23,492 nt of DNA from Deltaproteobacteria bacterium (lineage in GTDB: Bacteria > DRYD01): positions 1 through 23,492 of the forward strand of contig JAPYWL010000013.1 of the NCBI GenBank assembly GCA_028276365.1, in the 5' to 3' direction. Shown here piece by piece: positions 8,108-10,248 of the stretch. Below the pieces are notes generated by a model. That model saw nothing but the letters and a program-made list of their open reading frames with translations, was not told the DNA's origin and did not search any database. The first letter of the stretch is position 1, and the number at the start of each line of letters is the position of its first letter. The position numbers and the translations under genes are program-made.

Positions 8108-8482
8108 ATGGCAAAGAAAAAAAAGCAAAAATTAGTGTCTTCTACAGGAGTAGCACATATTCATTCTACTTTTAATAATACCATAATAACTATAACTGAT
8201 GAGAATGGTAATACTATAAGTTGGGCTAGTGGAGGTACTGTTGGATATAAGGGTTCTAGGAAAAGTACTCCTTTTGCAGCTCAGTTAGCAGCAAAACAGG
8301 CAGCAGAAAAAGCTATAAATGCAGGTTTAAGAGAAGTTAAAGTTATAGTTAAGGGACCTGGTATGGGAAGAGAAGCTGCTATTAGGGCTCTTAAAGCTGC
8401 AGGGCTTGAAATTAGTGATATTAAAGATGCTACTCCTATACCTCATAATGGCTGTAGACCTCCTTCAAGAAGAAGAGTTTAA
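8108..8482 (+). CDS. rpsK: Ribosomal protein S11
   Basis: A 124-residue S11 protein of the 30S platform, where it contacts 16S rRNA near the E site and the Shine-Dalgarno helix. The family is unmistakable from '[18 protein letters not shown]', '[19 protein letters not shown]', '[15 protein letters not shown]' and the C-terminal '[15 protein letters not shown]'. The length is normal. A run of five G (8093-8097) gives a strong ribosome binding site about 10 bases before the ATG. In most bacteria rpsM precedes and rpsD, rpoA and rplQ follow. Here the order rpsK-rpsD-rpoA is kept, but cdaA sits upstream in place of rpsM. A weak promoter candidate (TTGAAA at 8048-8053) lies upstream, without a good -10. 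Confidence 0.98.
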
Positions 8483-8529
8483 AGCTTTTTAGGAGTATAT
8501 TTTAAAAGTATAAGTTTAGGTAAGTAAAA

Positions 8530-8605
8530 AGAAATTTTATGATATTTTATATTATTCCCGCTTATAGCAAGAGAAGCGGAATACAAATTTCTCTTGCTTT
8601 TATTT
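8530..8605 (+). promoter_or_regulatory. Attenuator-like leader between rpsK and rpsD, candidate S4 autoregulatory element
   Basis: Two mutually exclusive folds can be drawn. Fold A pairs 8554-8563 (ATTCCCGCTT) with 8574-8582 (AAGCGGAAT), a nine-pair stem with one bulged C and a ten-base loop. It is enclosed by an eight-pair helix joining AGAAATTT (8530-8537) to AAATTTCT (8585-8592). Fold B pairs AGCAAGAGAA (8566-8575) perfectly with TTCTCTTGCT (8589-8598) and is followed by TTTATTT, a terminator-like layout. The folds share 8574-8575 and 8589-8592, so forming one breaks the other. Ribosomal protein S4 represses its own mRNA in other bacteria, so S4 is the natural ligand guess (inference). Confidence 0.6.
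8566..8605 (+). terminator. Intrinsic-terminator-like hairpin upstream of rpsD
   Basis: A perfect ten-pair stem, AGCAAGAGAA/TTCTCTTGCT, with a 13-base loop is followed directly by TTTATTT. It lies 18 bases before the rpsD start. It could end part of the rpsK transcripts or serve as the terminator half of a conditional leader; the T-run is interrupted by one A. Confidence 0.55.
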
Positions 8606-8622
8606 AGAAACGAAAGGTTGTT

Positions 8623-9261
8623 ATGGGTAGATATATAGGACCAGTTTGTAAATTATGTAGAAGGGAAGGAATTAAATTATATCTTAAAGGAGAAAAATGT
8701 TATACTGAGAAATGTCCTTTAGAAAAGAGGAATTATCCACCAGGGCAACATGGATTTGCTAAAAGGAGACCTAAATTAACTACCTATGGATTAAGGTTAA
8801 GAGAAAAACAAAAGGTTAGAAGGATATATTGGCTTAGTGAGAAGATGTTCAGAAAATATTTTGCAGAAGCTAAAAGATTAGCAAGATTAGGTAAGGGATT
8901 TACAGGACCTAATCTAATGAGGATTTTAGAAAAAAGGTTAGATAATGTATTATATAGATCTAATTTAGCAGTTTCCAGATTACAAGCAAGACAATTAATT
9001 ATTCATAATTTTGTTAAAGTTAATAATATCAAAGTTGATATACCTTCTTATTTAGTTAAAGTTGGGGATGTTATTCAATTAGATCCTAAAGCTTTAAATA
9101 TTATAAAACCTTATTTAGAAAGCTCTAATAAATTAAATATTCCTTCTTGGTTAAATGTTAATTTTGATAATTTAACTATTAAAATTGTAAGAGAGCCAGA
9201 AAGAAGTGATATTGAATATCCAATTGAAGATAATTTAATAGTAGAGTTCTATTCAAGATAG
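8623..9261 (+). CDS. rpsD: Ribosomal protein S4, zinc-binding (four-Cys) form
   Basis: A 212-residue S4, a primary 16S rRNA-binding protein that nucleates assembly of the 30S body and lines the mRNA entry site. The N-terminal zinc motif is intact: Cys9, Cys12, Cys26 and Cys31 in 'CKLC...CYTEKC'. This 'C+' form and 'YPPGQHG', 'YGLRLREKQKVRRIYWLSE' closely resemble the Thermus-type S4. The S4 RNA-binding domain follows ('RLDNVLYRSNLAVSRLQARQLIIH'), and the protein ends with 'LIVEFYSR', as the family does. AAAGG lies five bases before the ATG. The 140-base gap after rpsK is unusually long for this operon and contains the attenuator-like leader. The next gene is rpoA, 36 bases on. S4 is a likely autoregulator of this unit, by analogy with Bacillus and E. 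coli. Confidence 0.98.
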   Translation: MGRYIGPVCKLCRREGIKLYLKGEKCYTEKCPLEKRNYPPGQHGFAKRRPKLTTYGLRLREKQKVRRIYWLSEKMFRKYFAEAKRLARLGKGFTGPNLMRILEKRLDNVLYRSNLAVSRLQARQLIIHNFVKVNNIKVDIPSYLVKVGDVIQLDPKALNIIKPYLESSNKLNIPSWLNVNFDNLTIKIVREPERSDIEYPIEDNLIVEFYSR

Positions 9262-9297
9262 AATATTTTTTATTTAAGGTAAGGAGGGCTTTAGAAG

Positions 9298-10248
9298 ATG
9301 TTAGTTATAAATGAGAGTTTAAAAGCGGGTACTTTAGTATTAGAGCCTACTTATGGTAGATTCTTAATAGAGAATTTACCTAAGGGAATGGGAATAACAT
9401 TAGGAAATACTTTAAGAAGAATTTTATTATCTTATATACCTGGTGCTGCTATTTTTTATGTTAAGTTTTCTAATGTTGTTCATGAATATGAATCTATTGA
9501 AGGGATAAAAGAGGATCCTATAGATATTATTCTAAATCTTAAGGGTGTTAGATTTAGGTATGATAATAAGGAGCCATTTGTTAAGGTATTTTTAAGTGTA
9601 AGAGGTCCTGCTCAGGTTTTGGCTAAAGATATAAAATGTCCTGAAAGAGTAAGTGTTATTAATAGGGATCATTATATAGCTACTATTACTACTAATACTA
9701 CATTAGAATTTGAAGCTGGGGTTATGCTAGGAATTGGATATGTGCCTGCTGAGGATCATATTTTCCCTCCTGAAATTCCTGCTACTATCGGATATATTAA
9801 AGTGGATAGTATATTTTCTCCCATTGTTCAAGTTAATTATTATACGGAACCTGAAAGAAAAGGAGAAAAAATTACTTCAGAAAAATTATATTTAGAAATT
9901 TGGACTGATGGTAGTATTACTCCTAAAGAGGCTCTTTCTAAAGCTTTATTTATTGTTAAAGATTATAATGATAAACTTATTAGTGAATATGCTGTTTCTC
10001 AAGATTTAGTTTCTAATATCCCAGTTTCTTCAAAATCTAATATAAATATAAATAATTTAACTTTAAAGGATTTAAATTTATCTTCTAGAGCTTTAAATGC
10101 TTTAAAAAGAATTGGTATTAATACTCTTGAAGAATTATTGAATTATTCAGAAGATGATTTATTAACTGTTAGAAATTTAGGAGGTAAATCATTAGAAGAA
10201 ATAAAGGAAAAATTAAAAGAACTTGGGTTATCTCTTAAAAAAGTATAA
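9298..10248 (+). CDS. rpoA: DNA-directed RNA polymerase alpha subunit
   Basis: A 316-residue alpha subunit. The N-terminal domain (1 to about 230), which dimerises and binds beta and beta', shows 'GMGITLGNTLRRILLSYIPGAA', 'EYESIEGIKEDPIDIILNLK' and 'LEIWTDGSITPKEAL'. A linker rich in Asn and Ser leads to the C-terminal domain (about 252-316), which binds UP elements and activators and shows 'LNLSSRALNALKRIGINTLEELL' and 'VRNLGGKSLEEIKEKL'. AAGGAGG (9281-9287) lies 10 bases before the ATG. rplQ, the usual next gene, is absent; a hairpin with a T-run and then an unrelated protease gene follow. It is probably transcribed with rpsD and, depending on the leader, rpsK. Confidence 0.98.
   Translation: MLVINESLKAGTLVLEPTYGRFLIENLPKGMGITLGNTLRRILLSYIPGAAIFYVKFSNVVHEYESIEGIKEDPIDIILNLKGVRFRYDNKEPFVKVFLSVRGPAQVLAKDIKCPERVSVINRDHYIATITTNTTLEFEAGVMLGIGYVPAEDHIFPPEIPATIGYIKVDSIFSPIVQVNYYTEPERKGEKITSEKLYLEIWTDGSITPKEALSKALFIVKDYNDKLISEYAVSQDLVSNIPVSSKSNININNLTLKDLNLSSRALNALKRIGINTLEELLNYSEDDLLTVRNLGGKSLEEIKEKLKELGLSLKKV

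Follow-up and report, generated by a model that had tools for sequence, protein, structure and literature searches.

A predicted leader pseudoknot upstream of rpsD that recurs before many unrelated genes in one bacterial family

The leader of rpsD in the window (the whole 23,492-nt stretch of DNA analysed, which is contig 43 in a draft genome of 1.59 Mb) is predicted to hold an H-type pseudoknot composed of two short helices, P1 and P2 (Table 1). The same element recurs upstream of numerous other genes, in one orientation and at characteristic spacing to the start codon, and among the genomes searched it is restricted to one family. The structure before rpsD is probably one instance of a cis-acting leader pseudoknot that is specific to this family and acts in translation initiation.

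The nearest named relatives of the window belong to the Candidatus Calescibacterium group, which is known from hot springs; they are metagenome genomes. Comparison within the family covered six genomes, 71–90% complete: that of the window, one more of the same genus (G001; genus g1), and four of a second genus (G002–G005; genus g2). G003 and G005, being closely related, do not provide independent sites. The alpha operon of the window is split; rpsK, rpsD and rpoA stand together at 8108–10248, preceded by a cdaA-like gene, and neither rpsM nor rplQ is with them. The rplQ gene is located elsewhere in the genome (locus L073) and has its own pseudoknot copy in the window's genus.

A preliminary description of the window had noted three pairings in the rpsD leader, all of which are present in the sequence as written. 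The first is a helix of 10 perfect pairs between AGCAAGAGAA (8566–8575) and TTCTCTTGCT (8589–8598), with a 13-nt loop and followed by TTTATTT; the second pairs ATTCC(C)GCTT (8554–8563) with AAGCGGAAT (8574–8582), with one bulge; the third, an outer helix, pairs AGAAATTT (8530–8537) with AAATTTCT (8585–8592). They had been described as mutually exclusive, but the first two overlap only at 8574–8575; apart from these two bases they interleave to give an H-type pseudoknot, the loop of P1 pairing with sequence 3′ of that helix. Since all six genomes share this arrangement at rpsD, the two most likely form together, and the short helices spotted in the preliminary description appear to make up a real, selected RNA structure. 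The competing outer helix did not hold up: it is weak, an exact 8-mer complement occurring in 11 of 200 leader shuffles, and is unsupported outside the window's genus. Its counterpart in G001, the only further genome from that genus, is bulged (4/200 shuffles), and there is no room for it in the second genus, because rpsK ends 3–5 nt before P1. The nested, pseudoknot-free leader fold was no more stable than shuffled sequence (z of −0.39 and −0.89), as is expected if the real structure cannot be represented by nested folding. MFE folding is uninformative here because it cannot form pseudoknots, and stability alone proves nothing, since the nested leader folds no better than shuffles.

Table 1. 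Features of the rpsK–rpsD region of the window
Feature	Position	Strand	Remarks
rpsK, ribosomal protein S11	8108–8482	+	Identified from ORF and sequence; cistron upstream of the pseudoknot, same neighbour in relatives
Conserved A, four bases before CCGC	8554	+	A in 114/121 sites (92% in genus g2, 100% in that of the window); no other base upstream of P1 is conserved
P1 5′ arm (CCGCUU)	8558–8563	+	Pairs with 8574–8579; fifth pair covaries; CUGC/GCAG in G002 orthologues
P2 5′ arm (AGCAAGAG), inside the P1 loop	8566–8573	+	Pairs with 8591–8598; GCUGG../..CCAGC at the same place in the sister genus
P1 3′ arm (AAGCGG)	8574–8579	+	The ten-pair helix of the preliminary description would take 8574–8575 from this arm
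Conserved linker AAUACAAAUUU (consensus WAUANAARU), P1 to P2	8580–8590	+	WAUA fixed by the search pattern
P2 3′ arm (CUCUUGCU), closes the pseudoknot	8591–8598	+	P2 pairing assessed against swapped partners over all sites
Spacer to rpsD start	8599–8622	+	24 nt from P2 to AUG; weak SD-like AAAGG at 8613–8617; U-rich start is the terminator tract of the preliminary description, not conserved in the sister genus
rpsD, ribosomal protein S4	8623–9261	+	NCBIfam TIGR01017 (3.9e-62), PRK05327 (6.5e-69); cistron behind the pseudoknot

The rpsD gene was found in all five other family genomes, and P1 and P2 are arranged just before it in six of six, in the common order CCGC(UU), first arm, GCGG, linker (A/U)AUANAAAU, and second arm complementary to the first. 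P2 reads GCAAGAG/CUCUUGC in the window's genus, where it is followed by CUUUUAUUU/CUUUUAUAAUU, versus GCUGG(AU)/(AU)CCAGC in the second genus. The U-rich tail which, together with the hairpin, had given the leader its terminator-like appearance is limited to the window's genus, and the other genus has CCC..GGG there; a terminator reading is therefore not general.

Covariance analysis across relatives, as suggested in the preliminary description, revealed compensatory changes in both P1 and P2. Over all sites, the P2 pairing score was ≥14 in 90%, compared to 11% when partners were swapped between sites of different genes, and the 122 sites contain 96 distinct P2 5′ arms. The fifth pair of P1 is U-A, C-G, U-G or G-C in 112 of 122 sites. 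A double change in P1 was found among copies missed by the strict pattern: an acs-like gene of G002 and a gene which we take to be rpoZ from reading its sequence (NCBIfam gave no match at the threshold used) carry CUGC/GCAG, whereas the orthologues in G003–G005 have CCGC/GCGG. Judged by compensatory change in both helices, the predicted pseudoknot structure is demonstrated. Conserved bases outside the helices are the A four positions before P1 and AUA-N-AA(A/G) after it. The invariance of CCGC, GCGG and WAUA is partly by construction, because the search pattern fixed them; the A at −4 and the AA(A/G) following WAUAN were not fixed, and the positions after the WAUAN-type part are A in 121/122, A in 122/122, A or G in 122/122, and U in 99/122 sites. 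The element, about 40 nt in length, thus combines a P1 and an A-rich linker that are nearly invariant in sequence with a P2 whose sequence is free but whose pairing is held.

Searches with the core pattern returned about eight or more sites per family genome and none for the same pattern read backwards; for a looser core pattern, the reversed control gave nearly none. Strict and model searches identified 12–32 sites in most family genomes and 13–14 in the least complete, and 122 sites were collected with their surroundings from the six genomes. Genome-wide rates were estimated from two samples of ~386 and 358 kb, and in such unbiased samples approximately 1–2% of the genes carry the element (7/333 in G002 and 4/306 in the window's genome). 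A covariance model built from 55 sites did not match, at E ≤0.01, the sister family genome G006 or any of 137 other genomes (138 in total), the pattern was at background in 380 other genomes (0–2 per genome, as for the control), and viral contigs gave no matches. A known RNA family was rejected, as the leader had no Rfam match at the gathering threshold or at E ≤5.

Clustering of the pseudoknot-bearing genes resulted in 52 gene families. Targets named by NCBIfam include the ribosomal proteins S2, S4, S15, L5, L7/L12, L17, L31 and L32; ribosome recycling factor (frr), trigger factor (tig), and asparaginyl- and alanyl-tRNA ligases; Jag/EloR (KhpB), RecA, SSB and acyl carrier protein; malate dehydrogenase (mdh), GAPDH, aldolase, PPDK and ribose-phosphate diphosphokinase; and SufC, IspH and a membrane pyrophosphatase. 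No pathway is common to these genes. rpsD is the only gene with a pseudoknot in all six genomes, carrier genes otherwise differing between the genera. The jag/khpB gene, which codes for an RNA-binding protein, carries the element in five of six (L281, L156, L089, L044 and L045), the genome without it being 71% complete; its product is a candidate recogniser of the pseudoknot, and may regulate its own synthesis.

The sites are closely tied to start codons. When ORFs of ≥60 residues were considered, the first ATG of an ORF on the same strand was 8–70 nt downstream at 117 of 121 testable sites, compared to 3–4% of random positions, and none of the sites preceded an ORF start in the opposite direction. 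The spacing between P2 and the AUG has two peaks: P2 ends 10–13 nt before the AUG at 32 sites, four of which have a Shine-Dalgarno (SD) motif, and 17–21 nt before it at 33 sites, 18 with such a motif. Among spacers of ≥26 nt, 18 of 29 begin with a hairpin abutting P2 (mean 2.3 and maximum 7 in 500 shuffles), and in 14 of these 18 the hairpin ends 12–15 nt from the AUG; the hairpins restore this distance, and the extra spacer sequence is therefore folded away.

Several other roles were rejected. Within genus g2, 71 of 92 sites are located between cistrons with the upstream stop codon ≤12 nt away or inside the pseudoknot, a placement that speaks against a promoter or an element of transcription start, and neither a promoter motif nor a −10 pattern was found at a fixed distance from the g2 sites. 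The pseudoknot is not a simple SD replacement, because SD-like motifs are about as common elsewhere and not depleted overall at pseudoknot genes (0.385 vs 0.42 and 0.24 vs 0.35 for pseudoknot genes and elsewhere, respectively). A function as marker or booster of highly expressed genes is likewise unsupported, the codon bias of pseudoknot genes, used as a proxy, not being above background (p = 0.20).

Position, spacing and orientation of the sites fit an action on initiation at the downstream cistron, not on transcription start, and it is from position that we infer the mechanism. The pseudoknot may work as an mRNA platform during translation initiation; its invariant core would be recognised by the 30S subunit or by one common RNA-binding factor, and the element would set how readily the ribosome reaches the AUG. 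A role in promoting initiation, or as a standby structure, is slightly favoured. At rpsD, the output of S4, and perhaps also of the downstream rpoA, could be set separately from rpsK. The preliminary description had proposed that S4 itself sets the alpha-subunit level in this way; with rpsD one target among more than 50 gene families, its control would instead be part of a wide network and not S4 feedback.

Precedents for such a role are two known kinds of initiation platform: the rpsO (S15) leader pseudoknots of mycobacteria and E. coli, which are situated at or upstream of the initiation site and serve either to dock the mRNA or to control access of the 30S subunit (PMC10931766, PMC3858243), and the tisB 5′UTR pseudoknot of E. 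coli, which is needed for 30S loading (PMC7708055). As in mycobacterial rpsO and in tisB, the element described here lies 5′ of the start codon, and its role may be similar. However, rpsO represents one gene with one ligand, S15, whose recognition relies on a U-G/C-G motif, whereas here an invariant core precedes dozens of unrelated genes; and the tisB pseudoknot, on a single toxin mRNA, lies about 100 nt from the ribosome binding site (RBS) and works together with bS1, whereas the sites described here are mostly 10–25 nt from the AUG in genomes in which no bS1 was found, so that dependence on bS1 is not a shared feature.

An S1-domain search did not find ribosomal protein bS1 in the six family genomes. 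S1 domains occur there only in one or two large proteins (open frames of 568–706 residues), which we take to be of PNPase and RNase size. The sister-family genome G006, which is free of the pseudoknot, encodes a bS1-like protein of 375 residues with four S1 domains (C63:2226-3224). Because the genomes are largely complete, a chance absence from all six is unlikely, and Calescibacteriaceae appear to have lost bS1; the link to the pseudoknot is drawn from this single contrast with one sister genome. bS1 helps other bacteria to load structured mRNAs. Rather speculatively, with bS1 lost, the one invariant pseudoknot core might be read directly by either the 30S subunit or a protein dedicated to this, in a genome-wide set of structured initiation modules placed at a fixed distance before chosen start codons. 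If true, bacteria would here have a cis-acting ribosome-recruitment element in use throughout a genome. The coincidence of the pseudoknot with the apparent loss makes it possible to test how translation is initiated in bacteria that have no S1.

A realistic, if tentative, possibility is that the element is the operator for one trans-acting translational repressor or, riboswitch-like, for a metabolite, serving global growth or stress control. The ligand would bind the core (A-4, P1 and WAUANAAR), stabilise the pseudoknot and block the 30S subunit from the nearby AUG, which makes this a sub-case of the action in translation with its direction fixed as repression. A nearly invariant core joined to a freely varying P2 across unrelated genes resembles a recognition site; the end of P2 at many sites is only 10–13 nt from the AUG, within the ribosome footprint; and the presence of the element at jag/khpB would fit autoregulation. 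PreQ1-I and similar riboswitches are likewise small H-type pseudoknots that lie near the RBS and have an A-rich third loop. The sequence of the element described here is different, however, no Rfam family matches it, and its targets lack the metabolic coherence seen for metabolite riboswitches.

It is improbable that the copies are a mobile or dispersed repeat (MITE- or REP-like) landing in intergenic DNA, or a structure that processes or stabilises mRNA without a direct role in initiation. A near-identical subfamily in G001, with ~40 nt of upstream sequence common to three read copies, indicates that copies can spread, but the P2 arms are unrelated between sites yet nearly always paired, and orthologous copies are conserved with compensatory change, so that mobility is already disfavoured. 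The single orientation and the restored distance to the AUG speak against either version, and a role in mRNA stability would not need fixed spacing to the AUG. Assignment to MITE or REP elements, near-identical copies in either orientation, was rejected, as the sites have one orientation and divergent P2 arms and near-identity is confined to the G001 subfamily.

Feedback specific to S4, the ligand suggested in the preliminary description, is unlikely at rpsD. That S4 represses its own cistron by binding to the rpsD leader has very little probability, even though only rpsD carries the element in all six genomes and S4 uses a pseudoknot in the alpha operon of E. coli (PMC10931766). The core also stands before more than 50 other gene families (rpmE, recA, ssb, mdh, acpP and others), some of them unrelated to ribosomes, which would require S4 to act as a global regulator; an autogenous leader was therefore rejected, the element being neither restricted to S4-encoding transcripts nor matched by any Rfam leader. 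The E. coli Alpha_RBS is likewise a pseudoknot in an S4-containing operon and acts at translation, but it includes the rpsM RBS and is S4-specific, in contrast to the general distribution found here; the B. subtilis leader, also directly before rpsD, regulates that gene and forms no pseudoknot (PMC10931766).

Hardly credible is the two-state transcription attenuator of the preliminary description, in which the P2 hairpin would be the intrinsic terminator, opposed by an antiterminator made of P1 and the outer helix. It could draw on the U-rich stretch after P2 in the window's genus and on the bulged outer-helix counterpart in G001, but is contradicted by the compatibility of P1 and P2, predicted to co-form as a pseudoknot, by the 13-nt loop, by a U-run that is not conserved (the sister genus has no U-tract after P2, and most other sites are A-rich there), and by the impossibility of the outer helix where rpsK ends 3–5 nt upstream.

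The known leader pseudoknots (rpsO, tisB, S4) are cases of a single gene, a single operon or one pathway. Here, in a deep-branching family from hot springs, one pseudoknot core has been adapted to dozens of unrelated genes, with P2 rewritten for each and the distance to the AUG held. This points either to global control at the level of translation or to an initiation mechanism, absent from Rfam and from the literature searched.

The near-identical subfamily of G001 (CCGCCTGCAGACC..GGTCTGC; in RNA, CCGCCUGCAGACC..GGUCUGC) comprises about a dozen copies, among them loci L050, L165, L262, L266, L268, L270 and L275, mostly followed by a CAAAAGTGTA..TACACTTTTG hairpin (CAAAAGUGUA in RNA). The ~40 nt upstream of the three read copies are promoter-like (GTTAGGTTTTGT..CATATAATTAGTA), and the subfamily looks as if a promoter-plus-leader cassette had recently spread. 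The GCGG(A/U)AUA core (8576–8583 in the window) resembles, in our reading and possibly by coincidence, GCGGUAAUAC of the universal 530 loop of 16S rRNA, near the S4/S12 region. Variants with P1 loops of 27–56 nt occur only in genus g1 (L261, L263, L265, L267, L269, L271 and their G001 counterparts), and some of them contain an inner hairpin, e.g., ATATCCCTTTAGGGATAT in L271.
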